A stretch of DNA of 39,444 bases, taken from contig JAGVYF010000006.1 in NCBI GenBank assembly GCA_018303425.1, forward strand, positions 1 through 39,444, written 5' to 3'. This DNA is from Candidatus Woesearchaeota archaeon. Its GTDB lineage: Archaea > Nanobdellota > Nanobdellia > Woesearchaeales > JAGVYF01. Under the pieces are notes generated by a model. It did no database searches, was not told the origin of the DNA, and saw nothing but the letters and a program-made list of their open reading frames with translations. Position 1 is the first letter of the stretch; each line of letters begins with the position of its first letter. Position numbers and translations under genes: made by a program. Shown here in pieces: positions 7,587 through 26,205 of this stretch.

Positions 7587-7787
7587 TGAGCTTGGAGGGA
7601 CTTTCATAGCGACTAATTTATCCTGAATAGAATACTGGTAAGTTTGATTATTCAAACTTGCCTTGTTTTCCCCAGGGCTTTCTTAAAACGCTGATTTGAA
7701 CCCTCGGCCACCGGCTCGCTTAGAGCCGTTCTTGTATAGAACGAGGTCATATAAGACCGGCGCTCCACCAGGCTAAGCTACAAGCTC
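7587..7787 (-). tRNA. tRNA-Ile (UAU) with two introns
   Basis: G1 is at 7787 and A73 at 7587, with acceptor GAGCTTG/CAAGCTC. The anticodon stem CCGGT/GCCGG holds loop CTTATAA, anticodon TAT. A 33-nt intron (7717-7749) lies at 37/38 with a perfect BHB (CTTA/TAAG helix, bulges TAT and CGA). A 94-nt intron (7601-7694) lies at 59/60; the BHB is TTCA/TGAA with bulges AAT and AGT, and excision leaves TTCAAAT between GAGGG and CCCTC. The large intron belongs to the shared intron family described in the findings. A UAU anticodon reads AUA directly; many archaea instead use a CAU tRNA with modified C34. Confidence 0.85.
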
Positions 7788-7857
7788 AACGAACTGAAAT
7801 TATGATTATAGTGGAACGTATTTAAAAGTTTCGTTGTATTTAATAGTGAAAAGGTTA

Positions 7858-8023
7858 TACGGCAGCCGGGATTTTCGTAGCATTACCTGTTTGGATTGGG
7901 TAGTTGGCAAAAATTATTTTGCCCTCTGATTTTTCCCAGGTTTTTTGCTTAAGCAAAAAAGCTGATTCGAACCCGGATCTCAAGCTTGGGAAGCTCAAAT
8001 CCTAACCATTAGACTACTGCCGT
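7858..8023 (-). tRNA. tRNA-Gly (CCC) with a 94-nt T-loop intron
   Basis: The 5' end is at 8023 and A73 at 7858. The acceptor is ACGGCAG/CTGCCGT, so the first pair is A-U rather than the usual G-C. The anticodon stem TGAGC/GCTTG holds loop TTCCCAA (anticodon CCC), with no intron there. The T-loop intron (7872-7965) has a perfect BHB: TTCG/CGAA helix, bulges AAT and AAT, outer helix CCGGG/CCCGG. It leaves TTCGAAT on excision. The intron opens with CAGC-TTTTTTGC-TTAA-GCAAAAAA-C-CTG, a longer version of the family hairpin. Confidence 0.87.
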
Positions 8024-8086
8024 ATATTATGTTTTTAATTTTGCAAATATATAATTACTATTGTTAATTAAAATATAATTCTTTAT

Positions 8087-9307
8087 TTAAAATTCAAATA
8101 TTTTTTGAAGAATCTGATTTTTGTCAAAAGGTTTTAAATCATCATATGATTGACCAGTACCGAGATAAAGAATAGGTTTTTTAGTAACGTAAGAAATTGA
8201 AATTGGTGTGCCTCCTTTATCATCAACATCAGCTTTTGTAAGAATAATTCCCTGTATCCCTATCTGTATGTCATATCTCTGCGCCTGTTCTATGCAATCA
8301 TTCCCCGTTACAGATTCCCCCACAAAAATGTTTAGGTTTGGATTAACCACTTTTACGATTTTCTTTAGCTCATCCATTAAATTAGCATTGCTATGCATTC
8401 TGCCTGCAGTATCAATCAGAACAACATCAATATTATGGGCTTTTGCATATTTTACTGCGTCAAATGCAACTGCCGCAGAATCTGAACCATAATCATGTTT
8501 AACCATTTTAATTGTTAAGTTATTTGCATGCTCTTCTAATTGGTCAATTGCGGCAGCTCTGAATGTGTCTGCAGCAGCAAGGACTACGGAAAAATTATTT
8601 TTTCTTAAAAGGTATGCAAATTTTGCAATGCTGGTTGTTTTACCCGAACCGTTTATTCCAAAGAAACATATGATATAGGGTTTAGATGAATTTTTAATTT
8701 CTTTTATGATATCGAACTTTGGGATTTGTAAAACGTCTTCCAAACTGGTTTTTAAAGAATTAAGAATTGTTTCTTCAATATGGTTTCTTTTAATAGGTTG
8801 GTTAACTAGATTGATTTTTAAATCTTCTTTAATTTTCTCAATAACTTCAAATGCAACATTGTTTTCTAAAAGCGCCAGTTCTAGGTCCCAGAATAAACTT
8901 TCAAATTGGTTATCATCTAATTTTTTATAAGTTATCTTTTCTTTTATTTTTGCAAAAAAACTTTTTTTTTCGGGAATTATTTGGGCGGGTTGTTCAGTTA
9001 GTTGCTGTGAGGTCTCAGGTTCTTTATCAGGGCTGATTCTTTTTTCTTCAGCAATGCTTTTTAATTTTTCATTAACTTTTTCTTTAATTGTTTCTTGAAC
9101 AGGTTTGTTTATTTTGTTAGATTCTTTCCGAACAGGTTGTTCTGTTTCGGGAGTTTTTTCTATTGTTTTGTTAATTTTTTCAACGGGTTTTTCTATATTT
9201 TTCTTTTTTGTTTCTTTAACCGGTTCTATTTCTTTAATAGTTTCATCTATCTTTTTAGTAAAAATTGATACTGCGCTCTTTAATTTTTCTTTAAGAAATC
9301 CAAACAT
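8087..9307 (-). CDS. ftsY: Signal recognition particle receptor FtsY
   Basis: A GTPase that receives SRP-ribosome complexes at the membrane. The protein is 406 residues if started at the ATG at 9307 (MFGFLKEKLKSAV), 2 nt after the stop of the prefoldin gene; a farther upstream ATG at 9322 would overlap that gene and is less likely. Residues about 10-120 are a Lys/Glu/Pro-rich A region, followed by the NG domain. The NG domain shows the P-loop GINGSGKTTS, AADTFRAAA, the DTAGR G3 motif and the TKAD specificity motif. The A region sets it apart from Ffh. It is the last gene of scpA-(59 aa)-pfdA-ftsY; pfdA next to ftsY is a familiar archaeal order. Confidence 0.95.
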   Translation of the reverse strand: MFGFLKEKLKSAVSIFTKKIDETIKEIEPVKETKKKNIEKPVEKINKTIEKTPETEQPVRKESNKINKPVQETIKEKVNEKLKSIAEEKRISPDKEPETSQQLTEQPAQIIPEKKSFFAKIKEKITYKKLDDNQFESLFWDLELALLENNVAFEVIEKIKEDLKINLVNQPIKRNHIEETILNSLKTSLEDVLQIPKFDIIKEIKNSSKPYIICFFGINGSGKTTSIAKFAYLLRKNNFSVVLAAADTFRAAAIDQLEEHANNLTIKMVKHDYGSDSAAVAFDAVKYAKAHNIDVVLIDTAGRMHSNANLMDELKKIVKVVNPNLNIFVGESVTGNDCIEQAQRYDIQIGIQGIILTKADVDDKGGTPISISYVTKKPILYLGTGQSYDDLKPFDKNQILQKIFEF

Positions 9308-9309
9308 TT

Positions 9310-9741
9310 TTAGTGATGGCACTCAGTACCATGTACCTCGTGCTCCAGTTTGTGCGCTTCCGTTCCTAGTTTTTGTAAATCCCCTGATAATTGTTCATGA
9401 ACTTTTTTAACTTCTTCAATTTGTGTAAAGATTAATTCTTTAGTATGTTCAATGTTCATTTCTACCGCAGTATTTGCGCCAACATTCACTATTAAATTTG
9501 TATTATTTTTTAGTTCTGCTTTAGCAAAAATACCCGTAGCAACAGGCGTTAAAATTTCGGAGTTTATTTGTGATTGTTTAAAAACTTCAAGTGTTTCCAA
9601 AGTATCAATTAATTGTTGTTCTTGTTTATCCAGGCTAATTAATTGTTCCTGAGTAGCCTTAATTTGCTGGCTCATCATTTGTAATTGTAAGTATTTTTCT
9701 TGATCTTTTTGATTAAGTTTATCTTTTGGGCTAGGTTTCAT
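9310..9741 (-). CDS. pfdA: Prefoldin subunit alpha
   Basis: A 143-residue subunit of the hexameric prefoldin chaperone, which holds unfolded proteins for the thermosome. Two long coiled-coil helices (residues about 10-55 and 95-135) flank a beta-hairpin segment containing ILTPVATGIFAKAEL and NLIVNVGANTAVEM, the alpha-type pattern. The C terminus ends GTECHH. The stop is 2 nt from the ftsY ATG, and the upstream neighbour ends 12 nt away, indicating cotranscription. Confidence 0.93.
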   Translation of the reverse strand: MKPSPKDKLNQKDQEKYLQLQMMSQQIKATQEQLISLDKQEQQLIDTLETLEVFKQSQINSEILTPVATGIFAKAELKNNTNLIVNVGANTAVEMNIEHTKELIFTQIEEVKKVHEQLSGDLQKLGTEAHKLEHEVHGTECHH

Positions 9742-9753
9742 ATTAATTTACCC

Positions 9754-9933
9754 TTACTGCAGTTTCTGAATTAGGCTTTCTAAAAACTCTTTATATTTTT
9801 CTTCAAGCCCTAACTCTACAATATGCGGCCTTGTAAGACTTAAATCTTCTTCGTTTTCTCTAAAATCAGCATATTCTTTTTTTAATAAACTTTTTAGTAA
9901 ACTTATTTCGTTTTTATTTAGGTTGATTTCCAT
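9754..9933 (-). CDS. 59-residue protein, unknown, in the scpA-ftsY operon
   Basis: ATG at 9933, TAA at 9754-9756. The sequence begins MEINLNKNEISLLKSLLKKE and continues through EYADFRENEEDLSLTRPHIVE to a helical, acidic C terminus. It is predicted as two or three helices with no membrane segment. Its stop is 12 nt before the pfdA start, and it lies 120 nt after the scpA stop. In several archaea small ribosomal protein genes precede pfdA-ftsY, but I see no match to eL20/LX. It is a likely real gene because of its codon use and tight spacing to pfdA. Confidence 0.65.
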   Translation of the reverse strand: MEINLNKNEISLLKSLLKKEYADFRENEEDLSLTRPHIVELGLEEKYKEFLESLIQKLQ

Positions 9934-10002
9934 AAAGAAGTAAATCGAATGGTTATTTTTAAAGGTTACGTTTATATTATATTTAATTTAATTAGAATCT
10001 CG

Positions 10003-10034
10003 TTTTTCACTGGAAGTGTCTGGTTTAGATTGAC
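10003..10034. repeat. Dispersed 30-nt repeat, copy B
   Basis: TTTTTCACTGGAAGTGTCTGG followed by TTTAGATTGAC, between the scpA stop and the 59-residue gene. It is closest to the copies at 16379-16410 and 18896-18926. Confidence 0.45.
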
Positions 10035-10053
10035 ATTTTTTTTAAGTCAATTT

Positions 10054-10791
10054 TTAAGTTTTTTTTGGAAATTGTATGTGTATTTCGCCAAAATGATCTT
10101 TTTGTTCAAGGTCTATTTTTCGTTGATTGCTTAGATGAAGTAAGGGTATGAATGTATAAACTTTGTCCTCTTTATTTGCTTCATCAGGCAGCAACTGAGT
10201 GAACGTCATCTTTTTGTTGCCAGATAAGAAAAATATTTTTACTTTATCAAAAACTTCTCTGATAATGTTTGAGATATCTTTCTTTTTTTGAGGCATATGC
10301 ATTTTTATCTCATCAGGGATGTCTCTAAATACCCTGCGTTTTTTAACTTCCATCGCTTTCTGCAATGCATTCATTAAATCGAAGATAGAAACTTTTCTTT
10401 TCCTAGGCTGTGGAGTTCTAGGTATAAGCTTGAAATGTTCTTTTTCTTTTTGTGGTTTGTCGTAAATATTGCCAAAGTCTGAGAAGAAATCTAAATCATA
10501 ATCGGGTTCTTGCGTATAAGCAAACATACTATCCAATTTGTCTAAATCTTCGCCAATTAAACGGCTAGATTTTATTTTAAGCATCATTGTAGCAGCCAGG
10601 AGTACCTTGCCGGAAATTCTTAAATCACAGTCTTTCATCTTTTTAATCATGTCAATATATTTTTTTGAAAGAATTGAAACGTTGATATCCCAAGGATCCA
10701 TCTGTTCTGAACGGACTAACTCTTTAATAATTGCCTGCCAAGTAATTTCGTCATCTTTGGCAAGCATTGTTATGATTTTTTCTTCATTCAT
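10054..10791 (-). CDS. scpA: Segregation and condensation protein A (ScpA, kleisin)
   Basis: A 245-residue kleisin that bridges SMC heads. The N-terminal part shows the ScpA pattern DPWDINVSILSKKYIDMI followed by DLRISGKVLLAATMMLKIKS. The middle is a charged linker (residues about 95-160). The C-terminal winged-helix part includes FTQLLPD and VYTFIPLLHLSNQRKIDLEQ, the typical FxxLLxL-type ending. A TATA-like element CTTTTATATACA (about 10813-10823, minus sense) lies about 25 nt upstream of the ATG, suggesting a leaderless transcript starting the scpA-ftsY operon. No scpB or smc is in the window. Confidence 0.93.
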   Translation of the reverse strand: MNEEKIITMLAKDDEITWQAIIKELVRSEQMDPWDINVSILSKKYIDMIKKMKDCDLRISGKVLLAATMMLKIKSSRLIGEDLDKLDSMFAYTQEPDYDLDFFSDFGNIYDKPQKEKEHFKLIPRTPQPRKRKVSIFDLMNALQKAMEVKKRRVFRDIPDEIKMHMPQKKKDISNIIREVFDKVKIFFLSGNKKMTFTQLLPDEANKEDKVYTFIPLLHLSNQRKIDLEQKDHFGEIHIQFPKKT

Positions 10792-10811
10792 ATACTAATA
10801 AAGAATTCGGT

Positions 10812-10824
10812 TGTATATAAAAGT
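10812..10824 (-). promoter_or_regulatory. TATA box for scpA operon
   Basis: CTTTTATATACA in the minus sense, centred about 27 nt before the scpA ATG, fits an archaeal TATA element for a leaderless message. Confidence 0.5.
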
Positions 10825-10856
10825 TAGGAAAATAATAGCGAGGGGAGGGTCATCAC

Positions 10857-10887
10857 CAGCTTTTTAAAAAAAATCTGGGAAAAACAC
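10857..10887 (+). repeat. Freestanding copy of the tRNA-intron hairpin module
   Basis: CAG-C-TTTTT-AAA-AAAAA-T-CTG followed by GGAAAAACA matches the 5' module of the 94-nt T-loop introns (CGG-C-TTTTT-AAG-AAAAA-T-CCG then GGAAAAACA). The outer pair is changed in compensation (CAG/CTG for CGG/CCG). It lies 45-75 nt past the 3' end of tRNA-iMet but in the opposite orientation, so transcripts of the minus strand would carry its T-rich complement. Just left of it, AATAATAGCGAGGGGAGGG echoes the tRNA-iMet end AATAATAGCGGGGGGAGG. Confidence 0.7.
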
Positions 10888-10931
10888 GAATGGATTAACA
10901 TAGCTAGCCCTTAATTGAATTGATTAAATAA

Positions 10932-11046
10932 TAGCGGGGGGAGGATTTGAACCTCCGACCTGGGGGTTTCTCGAACTCGATCCGAGAATACGGATGCAAG
11001 TAAGCTATATGAGCCCCCCGGGCACTCCTGACTGCCCTACCCCGCT
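10932..11046 (-). tRNA. Initiator tRNA-Met (CAU) with an anticodon-loop intron
   Basis: A1 is at 11046 and A73 at 10932. The acceptor AGCGGGG/CCCCGCT begins with the A1-U72 pair of archaeal initiators, and the anticodon stem GGGGG/CCCCC contains the initiator G-C pairs. The loop after splicing is CTCATAA (anticodon CAT). A 40-nt intron (10968-11007) sits at 37/38. Its BHB keeps CTC/GAG with one mismatch, bulges TAT and AAA. The T-arm GGAGG-TTCAAAT-CCTCC is uninterrupted. Confidence 0.93.
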
Positions 11047-11136
11047 AGAAATGGCAGAACGTTATTTAGGTTAATTCTGGCTAATTTATAAAACTTTGGA
11101 TAGAAATGTTTAAAAAGGATTAGGTTCTGCATTATT

Positions 11137-11182
11137 TCAAACACGCGGTCTTTATTCAAGTCTATCTTGAAAAGGCGCGTGT
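11137..11182. other. Long imperfect hairpin upstream of tRNA-Ser
   Basis: ACACGCG pairs with CGCGTGT and TTCAAG with CTTGAA around the loop TCTAT, with an internal loop between the two stems. It may be the end of an unseen transcript or a DNA structure. The function is unknown. Confidence 0.4.
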
Positions 11183-11198
11183 CCAACGTTTTATTATC

Positions 11199-11275
11199 AC
11201 GTCGCGATCGCATCCTCGGACTAGCGTCCGGTCGCTATCGCTCGAATAATCAAAAAAATTACGTCGCGATCGCAT
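11199..11275 (+). repeat. 15-nt duplication of the tRNA-Ser 5' end
   Basis: ACGTCGCGATCGCAT occurs at 11199-11213 and again at 11261-11275, where it forms the acceptor strand and start of the D-stem of tRNA-Ser. The upstream copy is followed by a CGGAC/GTCCG hairpin and not by the rest of a tRNA, so it is a partial duplication. Confidence 0.7.
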
Positions 11276-11482
11276 AATCTGGTATTGCGCAGGATTGCTA
11301 AGTACTTTTGTAGTGCTTTAGAAACCTACATTATCACACAAATATCCTGTTTCCTTTGGATATCTGGGTTCAAAACGGCTTTTTAAGAAAAACCCGGGAA
11401 AAACAAGGCGGGCAAAACAAAATTTAGCCCACCATACTTCCAACCGTGTTATTTTTAGTCGATGAAATTCCCAGTCGCGACG
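11263..11482 (+). tRNA. tRNA-Ser (GCU) with two introns
   Basis: G1 is at 11263 and the discriminator G73 (a serine identity base) at 11482, with acceptor GTCGCGA/TCGCGAC. The anticodon stem CAGGA/TCCTG holds TTGCTAA, anticodon GCT. The variable region is 14 nt (TTTCCTTTGGATAT), as in class II tRNAs. A 43-nt intron (11301-11343) lies at 37/38. A 94-nt intron (11375-11468) lies at 59/60, with BHB TTCA/TGAA, bulges AAA and ATT, outer helix CTGGG/CCCAG; excision leaves TTCAAAT. The large intron begins ACGGC-TTTTT-AAG-AAAAA and has a second hairpin GGGC/GCCC. The 3' end lies 53 nt before the Fic start. Confidence 0.9.
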
Positions 11483-11502
11483 TTACTACAAAAATAGCAA
11501 AG

Positions 11503-11511
11503 TATATAAAA
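11503..11511 (+). promoter_or_regulatory. TATA box for the Fic gene
   Basis: GTATATAAAAT lies about 27 nt upstream of the ATG at 11536. This supports that start over the earlier in-frame ATG at 11446, which falls inside tRNA-Ser. Confidence 0.55.
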
Positions 11512-11535
11512 TGTGGGCACCTATATATTAATAAG

Positions 11536-12432
11536 ATGTATATTGAGATAAGAAAAAATGGAAAGAGTAAAAAGTATTATCTAAAACAGAGTTATAGGGT
11601 AGGTGCAAAAGTTAAAAAAATTGTTAAATATCTTGGTTCTAATCTTAGTAAAGAACAGCTTAATAAATGCAGTAAAATCGCTGAAAAGCTTATTCTTGAA
11701 GATATCAGTGGCAAAGACATTCTTGAATTTGAATTAACTAAAGATGAAATAAAAAGGTATCAGCAATATGATAAAAAAATTAAAATTGAACACTTACAAA
11801 AACTTAACTGGGAACATTTTACTGAACAATTTACTTATAACACCAATGCTATAGAGGGTTCAACTATTTCTGCTAAAGAAGTTAAAGAATTGTTAGAACA
11901 GAAAGATAAAGTTGAAAATCTTGAAGAGGTGGAAACATTAAATGTTGCAAAGGCTGTTAGTTATATTAAGAAAAGTAAAAAAAAGTTATCCGTTGCCCTA
12001 ATTAAAAAATTGCATTTAATATGTTTTAAAGGTACAAAGAATTTTGCAGGCAAAATAAGAAAAGTTGAAGTTGTTATAAGGGATAATTTGGGCAGAGTTG
12101 TACACGTAGGTGCGCTTGCTAAAGAAGTAAACGAATTATTAGATGAATTATGTATCTGGTACGAAAAACATAATAAAAATTATCCTCCAAGTTTATTAGC
12201 TACAATTGTGCATAACCAGTTTGAAAAAATTCACCCATTCCAAGATGGGAATGGTAGAGTTGGCAGATTATTGCTAAATTATATTCTATTAAAACATAAA
12301 TATCCGCCAATTAATATTAGACTTAAAGATCGTTCTGAATACTATCAATGTTTACAAAAATATGATCAAAATAGTGAAATTGTGTCTATGCTAAAGTTCT
12401 TGATTAAAGAGTATAGGAAGCAGTATAAATGA
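11536..12432 (+). CDS. Fic-domain protein (AMPylase-type)
   Basis: A 298-residue Fic/DOC protein that probably transfers AMP to hydroxyl groups of target proteins. The core motif HPFQDGNGRVGR (HxFx(D/E)GNGRxxR) is complete. An N-terminal TNAIEG matches the inhibitory helix motif (S/T)xxxE(G/N), so the enzyme is probably self-inhibited. Residues 1-45 form a small basic beta-rich region (IRKNGKSKKYYLKQS) seen in front of many archaeal Fic proteins, followed by a helical linker. An upstream in-frame ATG at 11446 would overlap tRNA-Ser and is rejected. No antitoxin gene is adjacent, which fits a class with the inhibitor built in. The targets are unknown. Confidence 0.9.
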   Translation: MYIEIRKNGKSKKYYLKQSYRVGAKVKKIVKYLGSNLSKEQLNKCSKIAEKLILEDISGKDILEFELTKDEIKRYQQYDKKIKIEHLQKLNWEHFTEQFTYNTNAIEGSTISAKEVKELLEQKDKVENLEEVETLNVAKAVSYIKKSKKKLSVALIKKLHLICFKGTKNFAGKIRKVEVVIRDNLGRVVHVGALAKEVNELLDELCIWYEKHNKNYPPSLLATIVHNQFEKIHPFQDGNGRVGRLLLNYILLKHKYPPINIRLKDRSEYYQCLQKYDQNSEIVSMLKFLIKEYRKQYK

Positions 12433-12573
12433 GGCTTTGCCGATATTGTTGTGGTTGGGGCAACTATATATTATGTTTATAAAAAAGAGTCTTTTAATTA
12501 TTAAATGATGCCATTGATATATTTTTTAGTGCCTACACCACATCTCTAAGAATAAAGGAGGAGCGCTTTTTTT

Positions 12574-13521
12574 CTAATCAACTATCTCACTCACAATAGT
12601 TTTAACTCTATTACTCGGTATTGCAAAACTTAAACTATCATAGCCGGATATTTTAAAATCTACAATGCCAACAATTTCGCCGTTGATGTTAATTATCGGT
12701 CCGCCTGAATTTCCAGGGTTTAAGGTTACGTCGGTTTGAATAAAGTCAAGACCATTCATCTTTCTATGTGGTGAACTAATTATCCCTTCTGTTGCAGTGA
12801 ATGATAAGCCTGCCGGATTACCCAGGGCAACTATTTTTTGTCCTGTCTGTAAATTGTCAGAGTTTGCAAAGTTAAAGTAATTGAAGGTTTCATCTGAAAC
12901 AATTTTTAATACAGCCAGATCATTTTCAATGTTGTATCCTATAAGTTCAACATTGTACGCGTTGCCATTATATGTTACAATCGATGCGCTTGTAATTCCA
13001 TCAATCACATGATGGTTTGTTACAACTAAGCCATTGGCAGAAATAATTGCTCCTGAACCTTGACCAAGATTAGTATGGATGCTTACAACTGAGTCTATGA
13101 CATTTGCAATAACAGTCGTAAAACTTTCAGATTCAACCTGTAAATCAGATATTTGCTGGTCAAGTTGCCCTAACTGTTCACCATAAATATCACTTGAATA
13201 TTTTAAACTTTGTATCTGCGATTTAAATATTTTGGTTGATTTTTCAAGTTCTCCTATCTGTAAATCATACTCCTCAATAGTTTGGCCTAAACTTTGGTCA
13301 AGTACCTTTAATTCTGAGTTTAATACATTAATCTGTTTTTGTTTTTCGTTTAGTGTATCTAAAAACACCAGTTTAGTTGTGTCGAGTTGAGTTTTTATAG
13401 CTTCAATTTGTGAAGTATAATCCTGTTCAAGTTCAGTTAATTTAGTGTTTCCAGTATAAAGTAATGAAGACACTATTAGAATCAATACAAAACTATAGAA
13501 TAGATGATGTTTAGTTTCCAT
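12574..13521 (-). CDS. Membrane-anchored HtrA-like serine protease
   Basis: A 315-residue S1C-type peptidase. A signal anchor (FYSFVLILIVSSLLYTG, residues about 9-25) is followed by a coiled coil (about 28-125) and a trypsin-like domain facing outside. The catalytic triad is visible: His in VVTNHHVIDG, Asp in IENDLAVLKI, Ser in LNPGNSGGPI. No PDZ domain follows; the protein ends with the catalytic domain, so the coiled coil may control assembly. The neighbour downstream on the same strand is unrelated Fic (opposite strand). A role in surface protein quality control is inferred. Confidence 0.9.
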   Translation of the reverse strand: METKHHLFYSFVLILIVSSLLYTGNTKLTELEQDYTSQIEAIKTQLDTTKLVFLDTLNEKQKQINVLNSELKVLDQSLGQTIEEYDLQIGELEKSTKIFKSQIQSLKYSSDIYGEQLGQLDQQISDLQVESESFTTVIANVIDSVVSIHTNLGQGSGAIISANGLVVTNHHVIDGITSASIVTYNGNAYNVELIGYNIENDLAVLKIVSDETFNYFNFANSDNLQTGQKIVALGNPAGLSFTATEGIISSPHRKMNGLDFIQTDVTLNPGNSGGPIININGEIVGIVDFKISGYDSLSFAIPSNRVKTIVSEIVD

Positions 13522-13558
13522 AATTTATACTATTTCTTATTATGGTTTAAATAGTTTA

Positions 13559-13795
13559 TTATTTCAAAAGCCTATGTGTATGCAGAACAATTCCGCCTTT
13601 CAATGCTAACATCCTTTTCTTGTCAATCTTATGTTTGTGAAAACCATTTCTTGTGGTGTATTTGCTATTAGGGGACCAAGAATGCCTGTGTCCAAAATCA
13701 AAAGAAGTCCATTTATTATTAGTCATGACTTGATGTTTTGTAAATTTAGCCGATTTATAAACTGTTTTTTTAAGCAATTTTGAAAATAAACCCAT
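13559..13795 (-). CDS. Small His-rich basic protein, unknown
   Basis: 78 residues from the ATG at 13795 (MGLFSKLLKKTVYKSAKFTK); a farther start at 13843 would add a hydrophobic tail and is less likely. The C-terminal half is rich in histidine: HQ, GHRHSW, GFHKHKID and VLHTHRLLK. This suggests metal or nucleic-acid binding, but there is no recognised zinc-finger spacing and no Cys. It lies between the protease gene and the exonuclease-like gene on the same strand. Confidence 0.55.
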   Translation of the reverse strand: MGLFSKLLKKTVYKSAKFTKHQVMTNNKWTSFDFGHRHSWSPNSKYTTRNGFHKHKIDKKRMLALKGGIVLHTHRLLK

Positions 13796-13872
13796 ATTTG
13801 TATTAAGGAGTTTCAAGAATATAAATGTTTGGTTTTTAATCAAGTGGAATGTTTATCTTTAAGCTTGTCAAA

Positions 13873-13920
13873 CGGCTTTTTAATAAAAATCCGGGAAAAA
13901 CAAGTGCGACATGCGCTCAC
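13873..13920 (+). repeat. Freestanding copy of the tRNA-intron element, two hairpins
   Basis: CGG-C-TTTTT-AAT-AAAAA-T-CCG then GGAAAAACAAG, followed by a second hairpin AAGTG...CACTT with inner GCG/CGC. This matches both hairpins of the 94-nt T-loop introns. The preceding bases GTCAAA resemble the T-loop TTCAAA, but no tRNA body or 3' BHB is present. It lies just 3' of the exonuclease-like gene, antisense to it, so minus-strand transcripts carry T-rich tracts that could act as a terminator. Confidence 0.65.
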
Positions 13921-13933
13921 TTTGTTCGCTTAG

Positions 13934-14686
13934 TCACACAGAATATTTTTCACTTAATTTATCAAACGCAAAGTTTGCCAGAAACTTTAAATTTTCTATA
14001 TCCGCTCGGTTATATTTGATTAATAATGCTAGTGCAGACTTATCCCCTCTTTTGTATCTATGCCATAAACGCACTGCTTCCCATCCATCAACACCCTCAA
14101 GTTCGTTGCCTCTGTTAATGCCAAGTTCTTTTTCTATTTTTTTAAGTCCGCCGGCGTAACCTAATTCTTTTAACGCGAACCTTAAATCCAAATGAAACTT
14201 GTTAAAATCTATTCTAGGAAATGAACGTTTTAAAAAAGGGATATCAAAACATCTGCCATTAAATGTTACAAACATGTCATACTTTTCAATTTCTTGCTCA
14301 AAATCTTCAAGGTTGATACCCTGAATAAAAAACTTTGAATCTGTACCATCATACACACCTATCACAGTTACATAGTTTTTGACTTTATCTGTGCCATTAG
14401 TCTCAATGTCAAGAAATGCAATATCTTTAACATGGTTATATGCGCGCCAGTGCTCATTTTGTGGCAAATGTTCAGAAAAGTAAAGATAGTCTTGGTCATG
14501 ATATGCCTTAATCGATTTTAATATATGTTCATGGATAGTTTCTTTTTTGTTATTTTTAAAGGTTATGTTTTGGTAATGATTTAAAAAATCGTACCATGTA
14601 AAAATGTTATTTTGATTAAGAAATGATTGAGTCTGTTCTCCAACTCCAGGTATGTGTCTAAAGGTTCTTGTTAGAATTTCTACCAC
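13934..14686 (-). CDS. DnaQ/RNase H-fold 3'-5' exonuclease-like protein (YprB-type)
   Basis: 250 residues. The N-terminal 70 residues contain a helix-hairpin-helix-like start (FRHIPGVGEQTQSFLNQNNI). The rest is an RNase H-like exonuclease domain. ExoI is FLDIETNG (catalytic D and E), ExoII is FNGRCFDIPFL, and ExoIII is YNRADIENL, so the acidic residues are present. It resembles the YprB/RNase_H_2 group often found beside helicases. The substrate is unknown; repair or RNA trimming is plausible. Confidence 0.85.
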   Translation of the reverse strand: MVEILTRTFRHIPGVGEQTQSFLNQNNIFTWYDFLNHYQNITFKNNKKETIHEHILKSIKAYHDQDYLYFSEHLPQNEHWRAYNHVKDIAFLDIETNGTDKVKNYVTVIGVYDGTDSKFFIQGINLEDFEQEIEKYDMFVTFNGRCFDIPFLKRSFPRIDFNKFHLDLRFALKELGYAGGLKKIEKELGINRGNELEGVDGWEAVRLWHRYKRGDKSALALLIKYNRADIENLKFLANFAFDKLSEKYSV

Positions 14687-14733
14687 CTATAAAAAATTTG
14701 GAATTGAGGGTTTATATTATTTGTGGGTCTGGA

Positions 14734-14815
14734 GTATAAAATCTGCCATTTTCATAAGTTTATAATTGGCGACATTAGCGGGCTCTGTCTAGAAAGCCAA
14801 TTGTCTGCATGTTAA
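14734..14815 (+). ncRNA. Possible small structured RNA (weak)
   Basis: A TATA-like AGTATAAAATC (14734-14744) is followed about 25 nt later by a foldable stretch: AATTGGC pairs with GCCAATT, and inside it GACA with TGTC. No known family is recognised. It could instead be a regulatory element upstream of lgt (start 14957). Confidence 0.25.
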
Positions 14816-14956
14816 TATTTAAACATAAAATTAATTCCAGTAAGAACTTTCTTGCTTATCTAATTAAATGTGTGTATATTAATTGGTAATGGGGTGACTC
14901 AGGATAATGCATTTTTTATCATAACAATTATAAACTATGAAATTTATTTTTCGTTT

Positions 14957-15682
14957 ATGTTGCCATATAAAATTTTTACAACTATTGATTTAGGATTTTT
15001 TAGTATCCAAGTTTGGGGCTTAATGGCAGCAATTGGTGTATTAATTGCAGCATTATTAGCAGTATATAGGGGTAAAAAATTAGGAATAAAAGAAGATACT
15101 ATCTATGATTTAGTATTTTATACAATTGTTTCAGGGATTATTGGTTCAAGGATTATGTATGTAATCGAAGAATGGGAATTATATAAAAATAATTTATTTG
15201 GCATCTTTAAAATTTGGCAGGGGGGGCTTTCATTCACAGGAGGCCTAGTTTTGGCTGTAATTGTTGCGTATTATTATCTGAACAAAAATAAACTCGATTT
15301 TTGGAAATATGCTGATTTACTTGCGCCAAGTTTAGTAATTGGACACTTAATTGCAAGAATCGGGTGCCATTTCACAGGAATGCACGTGTTTAGCGAAACA
15401 GGTTTGCCGTGGGCAATATACCAAGCAGGCGCATTAAGGCATCCCGGAATATTATATGAAATAATTTATTTGGGAATTGTTTTTTTTGCGTTGTTAAAAC
15501 TTTCAGAATACAGGTTAAAAAAAAGCACAGTCTTTATTATATACCTTGCGCTTTATTCTTTGTTTAGATTTTTTAGTGATTTTTTGAGAATAGATCCTAC
15601 TTTTTTTGGATTTACTGCTACACAGTATTTAATGATAATAATTTTCTTAGGTTCTATTATATGGTATAAATTCAACAAATAA
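14957..15682 (+). CDS. lgt: Prolipoprotein diacylglyceryl transferase-like protein (Lgt)
   Basis: 241 residues from the ATG at 14957 (MLPYKIFTTIDLGFFSIQVW); an earlier frame start adds an unlikely extension. Seven or so membrane segments are visible. Lgt signatures are the GGLSFTGGL segment, the signature-loop region ARIGCHFTGMHVF, RHPGILYE (matching the HPxxLYE motif) and SLFRFFSDFLRIDP near the C terminus. In bacteria Lgt attaches diacylglycerol to the Cys of lipobox proteins; in archaea the lipid would be an archaeol type. A lipobox CuA protein at 24489 is a candidate substrate. Lgt-like genes are known in some DPANN genomes (recalled). Confidence 0.85.
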   Translation: MLPYKIFTTIDLGFFSIQVWGLMAAIGVLIAALLAVYRGKKLGIKEDTIYDLVFYTIVSGIIGSRIMYVIEEWELYKNNLFGIFKIWQGGLSFTGGLVLAVIVAYYYLNKNKLDFWKYADLLAPSLVIGHLIARIGCHFTGMHVFSETGLPWAIYQAGALRHPGILYEIIYLGIVFFALLKLSEYRLKKSTVFIIYLALYSLFRFFSDFLRIDPTFFGFTATQYLMIIIFLGSIIWYKFNK

Positions 15683-15711
15683 ATATAAATTAGGGGAATC
15701 ACCTTAATTTT

Positions 15712-16350
15712 ATGGGTCTTTATGATATAATTAAAAGAGAAGGAATTGCAATTGATGTTGATGAAACTTTGTCAATTACAAGACCAAAAGTATTTGAAGA
15801 TATGAGAAGATTATTTGGTAATCCTGAAAATTTTACAGTTGAACAGTTAATTGCAAAATATGTTCACACGTTTTGTGTACCTTACTGGCAAACATCTGAG
15901 GCGGAATCATGGGTTCAAAACATTTTAAGAGATCAAGATTATTCTCAAAATTTAGAAGTATTTCCGGGGGCGGTAGAATATTTAAATAAAATTTCAGAGA
16001 TTATAGATATAAACTCTTATATTACGGCAAGACCTATAGCTATTGCAGGCGCAACCGAATGCTGGTTGAGAAAACATAAGTTTCCTGATGCGCCAATTAT
16101 CACAAGGTCAAACGAATTGTATGCCCAAGAAAGATATGGTAGTCAATGGAAAGCTAAAGTATTGAACGAACTCTGGCCTAAAGTTAAAGGTATTGTAGAT
16201 GATAATATAGAGTTATTAGACTTGTTAGGGGATTATAAAGGCAAGGTATTTGTTATTGGTTCTGAAAAATTAAAAGAAGATTATGATTTTGCTGTTGCCT
16301 GCCATGATTGGCAAGCTGTATATGAAGCAATAAGAAAAGAGTATGGTTAA
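15712..16350 (+). CDS. HAD-superfamily phosphatase (5' nucleotidase-like)
   Basis: 212 residues with all HAD motifs in order: motif I DVDETL (residues about 15-20), motif II in YITARP, a Lys in WKAKVL for motif III, and motif IV IVDDN. The helical cap between motifs I and II fits the deoxyribonucleotidase (NT5C) type, so dephosphorylation of nucleotides is a fair guess. It begins 29 nt after the lgt stop on the same strand and may share its transcript. Confidence 0.85.
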   Translation: MGLYDIIKREGIAIDVDETLSITRPKVFEDMRRLFGNPENFTVEQLIAKYVHTFCVPYWQTSEAESWVQNILRDQDYSQNLEVFPGAVEYLNKISEIIDINSYITARPIAIAGATECWLRKHKFPDAPIITRSNELYAQERYGSQWKAKVLNELWPKVKGIVDDNIELLDLLGDYKGKVFVIGSEKLKEDYDFAVACHDWQAVYEAIRKEYG

Positions 16351-16471
16351 GACCTTAAAATCTTATTTTAGATTAGTGTGTTTTACAGGTAGCGTCTGGT
16401 TTCGATTGACTATTAATGCATTACAGGATATAGGAATATTTATATATTACACTATTATTCAGTTTTATTTA
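16351..16471 (+). promoter_or_regulatory. Spacer with dispersed repeat and TATA box of a candidate RNA
   Basis: The dispersed repeat copy lies at 16379-16410 just past the HAD gene. A clear TATA element ATTTATATATTAC lies at 16438-16450. Its expected start, about 25 nt on, coincides with the base of the stem that opens the RNA at 16472. Confidence 0.5.
16379..16410. repeat. Dispersed 30-nt repeat, copy C
   Basis: TTTTACAGGTAGCGTCTGG followed by TTTCGATTGAC, just after the HAD phosphatase gene. It shares the run GTCTGGTTT.GATTGAC with copy B. Confidence 0.45.
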
Positions 16472-16560
16472 GCAACTAAGTGCGAAAGCTGAGGGTTGCT
16501 TGTGTAAAATCCTTGAGGTTCGCTTATGCGGTTAAACCTTCGCTCGCAAGTCTTAGTTGC
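16472..16560 (+). ncRNA. Candidate structured small RNA, 89 nt
   Basis: The ends pair: GCAACTAAG (16472-16480) with CTTAGTTGC (16552-16560). Inside are TGCGA/TCGCA, a GC-GAAA-GC tetraloop hairpin, and AGGTT-CGC-TTAT-GCG with a distal AACCT. A TATA box sits about 25 nt before the first base, and TTTTATTCTTATTAT follows the last, as expected for an archaeal transcript end. GC content is much higher than the flanks, typical of functional RNA in an AT-rich genome. No protein frame fits. I do not recognise it as SRP RNA, RNase P RNA, 5S or a box C/D RNA. Confidence 0.55.
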
Positions 16561-16573
16561 TTTTATTCTTATT

Positions 16574-16625
16574 ATAATCGAACAAAGTGAGATTATTTCT
16601 TTTGTTCAAACTTTTTAAAAGTTTG
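16574..16625. terminator. Two successive AT hairpins
   Basis: GAACAAA...TTTGTTC and CAAACTTTT-T-AAAAGTTTG follow the candidate RNA. They could end transcription from either side, because tRNA-Gly reads toward them from the right. Confidence 0.35.
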
Positions 16626-16695
16626 GCGGTCATAGATTTACTCACAAGTTTTAACTGTTAATTTTTCTATATATTCTTATAGAATTAAATTAATA

Positions 16696-16859
16696 TGCGG
16701 TCGCCGAGATTTTCGTGGTTCAAAACAATCCGTATGAATCATAGGTGAGCTAAACTTTGTTTTGCTTGCCATGTTTTTCCCGGATTTTTCTTAAAAAGCC
16801 GTTCGAACTCGGGTTACAGCGTTGGCAACGCCGCGTAATAACCACTATACTACGACCGC
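16696..16859 (-). tRNA. tRNA-Gly (GCC) with a 92-nt T-loop intron
   Basis: G1 is at 16859 and A73 at 16696, with acceptor GCGGTCG/CGACCGC. The anticodon stem CGGCG/CGCTG holds loop TTGCCAA (anticodon GCC). The T-loop intron (16710-16801) has a textbook BHB: helix TTCG/CGAA, bulges AAC and AAT, outer helix CCGAG/CTCGG. Excision leaves TTCGAAT. The intron starts CGG-C-TTTTT-AAG-AAAAA-T-CCG, GGAAAAACA, then an AGC/GCT hairpin and ACC, the same order as in the Ser, Ile and Gly-CCC introns. tRNA-Val lies 12 nt away on the same strand. Confidence 0.92.
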
Positions 16860-25679: not shown

Positions 25680-26205
25680 ATTTATCTGAAAAGTAAGTTA
25701 ATGTCGGGATTAAATCATTTGCCTTTTTTTCTTTAACAATGATTAAAAACATTAGAACTTCTAAATTTCTTGCTTTATTTATAAGGAATTGAACAAATTT
25801 CTGAATCTTCACAAGCGGGTCATATATTAAAAGTATGTTCAGGGAATCAAAAAGTATATATTTCATGTCAGTATTATTACAAACCCCTGACAAAGCAATT
25901 GATAGCTCTGTTAATGATTTACCGTTTAATGCTATATGATTATTTTTATTTATGGATTTACCTTCCCAGTCAATAAACAATATCTTTTCAGTGTCAATAT
26001 TTAATTTTGAGCACATTTTTAAAACAATGGTTGATGGCTTGTTTAATGATACATATATTCCAGGCAGTTTAAACTTTCTATTCAAAAATGCCGCAAGCTC
26101 AATACAAGTTTCATTATATTTATTAGGTTCAACAATTATAGTATAAACTCCATTATCATAATCAATTTTTGAAAGAAAATTATTTAAGATTTTATTTTGT
26201 ATCAT
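25666..26205 (-). CDS. RecA-fold protein without Walker A motif
   Basis: 179 residues. The strand pattern YTIIVEP, ILFIDWEG, KYILFDSLN, VLMFLIIVKE resembles KaiC/RecA-like domains such as DUF835-type proteins. No GxxxxGK(T/S) P-loop is present, so it is not a normal ATPase. FIDWEG and LFDSLN correspond to the positions of secondary-structure elements around Walker B. The role is unknown. It overlaps the nitroreductase gene by 14 nt, giving an operon of two on the minus strand. Confidence 0.6.
   Translation of the reverse strand: MIQNKILNNFLSKIDYDNGVYTIIVEPNKYNETCIELAAFLNRKFKLPGIYVSLNKPSTIVLKMCSKLNIDTEKILFIDWEGKSINKNNHIALNGKSLTELSIALSGVCNNTDMKYILFDSLNILLIYDPLVKIQKFVQFLINKARNLEVLMFLIIVKEKKANDLIPTLTYFSDKSIKI

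Follow-up and report, generated by a model that had tools for sequence, protein, structure and literature searches.

A probably mobile family of minimal RNA-structured elements of DPANN archaea, found in tRNA introns and at duplicated gene ends

Archaeal tRNA introns spliced at the bulge-helix-bulge (BHB) motif (as described in PMC4090602) are not always stationary. Transposition of tRNA introns has been reported for Thermoproteales (Fujishima et al. 2010, as cited in PMC4033280 and PMC4090602), by a mechanism that is termed unknown in PMC4090602, and both an att model for tRNA intron gain and the att-site behaviour of SSV1 have been described (PMC3293823). Here we analyse a window of 39,444 nt, a complete contig (JAGVYF010000006.1) of the 0.94-Mb genome of a Candidatus Woesearchaeota archaeon (G000; 96% complete, archaeal rRNAs present), in which an initial annotation had recognized four tRNA introns of one plan. 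We propose that these introns probably belong to a single mobile family of minimal RNA-structured elements of DPANN archaea. The element is approximately 30-110 nt long and consists of a hairpin (P1), a purine linker, a second structured region (P2) and a variable tail. Outside introns, it would insert in an attP-like manner together with a gene end.

The four introns are located in the T-loops of tRNA-Gly(GCC) (intron 16710-16801, minus strand; tRNA approximately 16697-16859; P1 and linker 16768-16801), tRNA-Ser(GCU) (11375-11468, plus strand; tRNA approximately 11263-11482; P1 and linker 11376-11409), tRNA-Gly(CCC) (7872-7965, minus strand; tRNA approximately 7860-8022; P1 and linker 7924-7964) and tRNA-Ile(UAU) (7601-7694, minus strand; tRNA approximately 7588-7787; P1 and linker 7660-7693). 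Their coordinates and strands were confirmed, as was the common plan of P1 hairpin, GGGAAAAAC linker and P2. The near-constant length of 92-94 nt holds for these four; elsewhere copies range from about 30 to more than 110 nt.

A 29-base pattern of P1 and linker matched seven times in the same genome and its reversed control not once. A covariance model of this core, R1, gave 12 matches there at E up to 0.03 (best E 2.8e-9), some partly by construction, as nine of the 12 or close variants of them had been built into the model. The window itself contains two of the additional copies (10857 and 13873, both plus strand), and both lie outside tRNA introns. R1 also had matches in 21 of 60 relatives and in at least 48 of the 353 genomes of the order (E ≤ 0.001, with 19 candidates scored per genome). 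An exact pattern with 22 fixed bases, run on 84,980 bacterial and archaeal species represented by one genome each, matched 13 contigs, all of them from Woesearchaeota, Diapherotrites, Micrarchaeota or unclassified DPANN/archaeon records. The covariance-model search suggested in the initial annotation thus found more copies in the genome itself and in many relatives, and the similarity is not reducible to A/T composition. Three scans of viral contigs gave no match to the core, and a viral origin was rejected on this ground. No Rfam 15 model matched the core in the window and the ten loci scanned, where only tRNA and rRNA matches were obtained, and a known RNA family is ruled out on this ground. 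The statement that no described RNA family has this form therefore stands within Rfam and the open-licence papers searched, but tRNA-intron transposition as such had already been described in Thermoproteales.

The compensatory changes first noted in P1 extend to the whole family. Among 93 distinct rows, 99.2% of cells pair and 77 cells are changed on both sides compared to 18 in shuffles, numbers which lean upwards, given related rows and an alignment that had been fitted to the model. The first P1 pair is C-G in 68 rows, G-C in 16, A-U in 8 and U-A in 1. The linker covaries with P1 (mutual information 1.08, 0.87 and 0.18 against shuffle maxima of 0.33, 0.19 and 0.09): a U-A pair is accompanied by A in the linker, C-G mostly by G, and A-U at the fourth position by U. 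A third strand running antiparallel along P1 would require such a pattern, and a triple helix is therefore conceivable. Folding energy supports P2 as a hairpin, its regions being more stable than shuffled sequences (mean z -1.9, n=94); the inner mismatch of P2, a conserved C.A, is real only for a subset of copies and weak against shuffles.

Several copies depart from this simple form (L and G numbers designate copies and genomes). Two from G001, L051 within the 16S rRNA gene and L119 in a tRNA T-loop, have an enlarged P1 with extra hairpins. In G254, four copies (L082-L085) are included in a longer conserved structured region, with GACAAGGGGGAAGUYCCU before P1 and GUGGGCUUGAGCGAAGCGAAACCC after it, and some have long outer inverted repeats. 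Another four in this genome (L080, L081, L086 and L087) are enclosed by intergenic hairpins, in which a GUAG/CUAC helix is accompanied by a 3-nt bulge. Their outer stems are complementary though different in sequence, and a second copy is often present in inverted orientation; these hairpins could possibly correspond to excised or circular RNAs.

Footprints of insertion are seen at copies outside introns. The sequence preceding P1 was compared, in 103 copies, with the 350 bases that follow P1, using a cut-off score of at least 13 and 304 mismatched flank pairs as a control. A direct repeat reaching this score and ending at P1 or no more than a few bases away was found at 31 of the 103 copies (27 without tandem arrays) and in none of the 304 control pairs. 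The repeats are 14-47 nt long, the first repeat copy abuts P1, and several are perfect (30/30 at L016, 32/32 at L047, 47/47 at L098 and also one of 40/40). The DNA between them is mostly 50-110 nt; a further copy, L133, is only about 29 nt long and lies between repeats of about 54 nt. Targets include tRNAs and the ends of genes for GAPDH, SecY, a PurH-type enzyme, tRNase Z and others, and the target gene is intact at nearly all repeat-flanked copies. On reading the loci, the intact gene is 3' of the element in about 25 cases and 5' in one (L107). Outside introns, the element thus lies with its precise 5' end, P1, against an internal point of a gene; the stretch from this point to beyond the gene end occurs in two copies, and the gene is thereby kept whole.

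Both additional window copies illustrate this arrangement. The fifth (10849-10925, plus strand; P1 and linker 10857-10890) is antisense to a tRNA gene (10932-11046, minus strand) and adjoins its 3' end. It is preceded by a displaced fragment of the tRNA 3' end (10830-10848, plus strand; AAATAATAGCGAGGGGAGG) and followed by the 3' end of the intact tRNA with its trailer (10926-10944, plus strand), the two being identical at 18 of 19 positions. The sixth (13873-13933, plus strand; P1 and linker 13873-13906) is antisense to an RNase H-superfamily gene and lies beyond its 3' end. A displaced gene end encoding FDKLKDKHST and a stop (13840-13872, minus strand) abuts P1, and the present end of the gene, FDKLSEKYSV and a stop (13934-13966, minus strand), is a diverged copy of it.

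These footprints, together with the searches above, bear on the simplest alternative, namely that the introns are ordinary vertically inherited BHB introns whose common core reflects A/T-rich hairpins and the descent of duplicated tRNA genes. The core is indeed A/T-rich and BHB introns are common in archaea, but such an origin is scarcely credible given the result of the reversed-pattern control (0 against 7), the presence of copies at protein-gene ends, the taxon-restricted exact matches and the lack of duplications in all 304 control pairs. Chance or A/T composition is likewise ruled out by the reversed-pattern and mismatched-flank controls and by the taxon-restricted scan. Spread of the intron between tRNAs, as the initial annotation supposed, is supported by near-identical introns (L029 and L050) in two tRNA genes of G052.

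Three further observations concern the organization of flanked copies. L016 (G000:C3, element 25877-25910, minus strand), with its perfect 30-nt repeats, lies between divergent genes for two tRNA-processing enzymes, the tRNA splicing endonuclease and tRNase Z, at whose start codon it sits. At L034/L053 (G022), L036/L055 (G036) and L092 (G043), the element and a spacer are repeated in tandem, in units of approximately 78, 135 and 160-240 nt. In G126, the displaced tRNA fragments at L067, L088 and L091 share a second and different T-loop insertion of about 50 nt, composed of two hairpins, GCTCTTGAATC..GATTCACGAGC and ATCAGGATTC..GAACCCTGAT.

The two copies of a duplicated gene end are often not identical, and this raises the question of which is native. 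At nine protein-gene loci the repeat pairs differ by 40 synonymous and 8 nonsynonymous codon changes, with the stop kept at both ends where applicable; three of the pairs (L111, L161 and that at window 13873) were located or extended via the peptide, which favours synonymous differences, and the other six loci give 19 synonymous and 2 nonsynonymous changes. The repeats at protein genes are thus diverged versions of one coding end and not decaying copies, and the mostly synonymous differences disfavour plain target-site duplication followed by decay. In G155, the displaced end and the sequence downstream of it match the ends of relatives without the element, and the end now in the gene differs. 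Similarly, the displaced FDKLKDKHST of the window RNase H-superfamily gene resembles the ends of its relatives (FDKLKNKH and FEKLKQKE). Comparison with relatives at these two loci suggests that the segment beyond the element is the native end and that the end within the gene came with the element, which therefore appears to arrive with its own gene end. As in attP/attB integration, the gene end is duplicated and the gene appears to be reconstituted by the incoming version, the direction having been examined at these two loci. Alternatively, the element might insert with an ordinary target duplication, the gene ends having diverged later by homologous recombination with relatives. The several perfect duplications would fit, and DPANN genes can be replaced by recombination. 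We nevertheless regard this course of events as improbable, since most protein-gene sites have diverged ends, the genes concerned are unrelated, there is almost no decay in the displaced ends, and recombination would need to have stopped within about 40 nt of the element every time.

With the native end displaced and the end of the gene brought in by the element, the moving unit would be the element plus a gene end, one or two hundred bases in all, and it would integrate where the gene end matches, in the manner of attP/attB integrative elements. It would be mobilized in trans by an enzyme, and splicing or reconstitution of the gene end would make the insertion harmless. Repeated rounds of insertion could have generated the tandem arrays of three genomes. 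The element, at 30-110 nt, carries no gene, and we found no recombinase encoded by it or linked to it. Tyrosine recombinases are present in 11 of the 12 copy-bearing genomes but are nearly universal, so that their occurrence is compatible with this scheme without being diagnostic. In G043, an integrase, considered as a candidate driver, adjoins a copy-bearing tRNA, on the other side of the tRNA from the copy, and no direct repeat ties the two.

The same final structure would result from RNA-templated, retrotransposition-like insertion, which remains the main rival. In this scheme, a processed RNA that begins at P1 and continues on its 3' side into the gene end would prime at a nick in one strand of the gene, and the gene end and the element would then be copied into the site by a reverse transcriptase. 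This would account for the precise 5' end, which is the intron 5' splice site, for variable 3' ends and repeat lengths (14-47 nt) and for the conserved RNA structure, and a single nick would explain why the gene is nearly always on the 3' side. It is doubtful, however, in view of the distribution of reverse transcriptases: no RVT_1 protein was detected in G000 or in 7 of the 11 other copy-bearing genomes, and presence of the enzyme (4 of 12 copy-bearing genomes compared to 5 of 25 without detected copies) does not track the copies. A reverse transcriptase was consequently rejected as the driver.

Integration of an element joined to a gene end, which we favour, also has points against it. A moving unit of approximately 100-150 bp would make an extremely small DNA circle, and neither a recombinase nor a reverse transcriptase tracks the presence of the element. 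Shared ancestry inflates the covariation counts, and the peptide-guided pairs are biased as indicated above. Finally, the T-loop introns have no clear duplicate of the 5' exon, so that insertion as an intron may proceed by another route than insertion at gene ends.

As introns, the copies have a recognizable splicing fold. The four window introns have a central helix of TTCG/CGAA (both tRNA-Gly) or TTCA/TGAA (tRNA-Ser and tRNA-Ile) and a 3-nt bulge (AAT in both tRNA-Gly, ATT in tRNA-Ser and AGT in tRNA-Ile), and the T-stem is CCGAG/CTCGG in tRNA-Gly(GCC) and CTGGG/CCCAG in tRNA-Ser. Together with 11 T-loop introns from elsewhere (L097 and L115, which are not T-loop introns, were left out), they form a set of 15. 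In all 15, exon position 57 covaries perfectly with the base that opens the YGAA at the intron end (8 A-U and 7 G-C), exactly 3 bases separate YGAA from the T-stem, and the T-stem pairs. The archaeal BHB motif, a 4-bp central helix TTCR/YGAA with 3-nt bulges, was examined in the T-loop copies and found there. The genome encodes a tRNA splicing endonuclease (PF01974 at G000:C3:26346, E 4.1e-27). Judging from their sequences, sense T-loop copies form the BHB motif, so that this endonuclease should be able to remove them and restore the tRNA. The initial annotation had noted both the conserved YGAAA and a pairing of CGGC or CAGC in P1 with the intron 3' end. Both belong to the BHB splicing fold, in which exon TTCR pairs with YGAA, and it is this pairing that explains the conservation of YGAAA. 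Further sense copies, as read from sequence, occur in anticodon loops (L030 and L126), in a D-arm (L041) and in 16S rRNA (L051).

In most T-loop introns, the 5' strand of P1 and the intron 3' end are complementary over up to 11 bp (L070), and P1 and the inner BHB helix are therefore mutually exclusive. Minimum-energy folds of the window introns favour a rod in which the P1 strands pair with the tail, the 3' strand of P1 also pairing with the tail beyond P2. The competition between P1 and the splicing fold proposed at the outset is thereby upheld. The same strand would alternate between P1 and the splicing fold, and the mobility machinery would recognize the free element in its P1 form.

In two of the window tRNAs, tRNA-Ser (11263-11482) and tRNA-Ile (7588-7787), an additional intron, unrelated to that of the T-loop, lies in or close to the anticodon loop, and both tRNAs were missed by ARAGORN. 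The called start of a Fic/DOC-family gene (11446-12432, plus strand) overlaps the T-loop intron of tRNA-Ser; its true start probably lies further downstream.

The DPANN family makes the spread of archaeal tRNA introns testable. It provides a covariance model, many lineages for comparison, and insertions whose footprints can be read and which appear to displace native gene ends, and with these the mobilizing enzyme, the choice between a DNA and an RNA intermediate and the route from mobile element to neutral intron can be addressed. It also carries a warning for annotation: in a DPANN genome, a duplicated tRNA or gene end can be the footprint of an element.

Among the closest described systems are the BHB tRNA introns of Thermoproteales, which, as presented in the papers citing the original report, share with the DPANN family the BHB splice motif, location at non-canonical positions, similarity of introns between unrelated tRNAs and spread from tRNA to tRNA. 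Compared on the same basis, the DPANN family differs in its defined covarying RNA core of P1, linker and P2, and in its copies outside introns, which occur in both orientations with flanking duplications and gene-end displacement. Archaeal group I introns (PMC6125680) also interrupt RNA genes, including those of Woesearchaeota and Micrarchaeota, but the element (approximately 92 nt or less) is far too short for a group I core, and Rfam detected no such catalytic core in the window or the ten loci. In open-licence papers we found no description of the core, its DPANN distribution or its insertion footprint. Like eukaryotic introners, which make spliceosomal introns, the mobile element is itself the intron and splicing makes its insertion neutral, although the archaeal element uses the BHB motif and splicing endonuclease in place of the spliceosome and is not shown to be a terminal-inverted-repeat transposon. 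Miniature elements of the MITE (miniature inverted-repeat transposable element) and REP (repetitive extragenic palindromic) types are similarly short, non-coding, hairpin-bearing and dispersed, with target duplications in the case of MITEs; the DPANN copies have no constant-length duplication or general terminal inverted repeats, and sense copies would be spliced at the RNA level. With integrative elements at tRNA and gene ends (SSV-type and pNOB8-type integrases) the family shares a crossover inside the gene, an end rebuilt from the incoming copy and a displaced fragment on the far side. It differs in being only about 30-110 nt long, without an integrase, and in using one common core at dozens of unrelated gene ends. 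More tentatively, it could represent a categorically new mobile element: the smallest integrative unit known, an RNA-structured core with a borrowed gene end, which moves between archaeal species by gene-end replacement, doubles as a spliceable intron in tRNA and rRNA hairpin loops, and switches between a P1-linker form, possibly triple-helical, and a splicing rod. Mobile BHB introns were already known; the insertion footprint had not been seen before in the open-licence papers searched.

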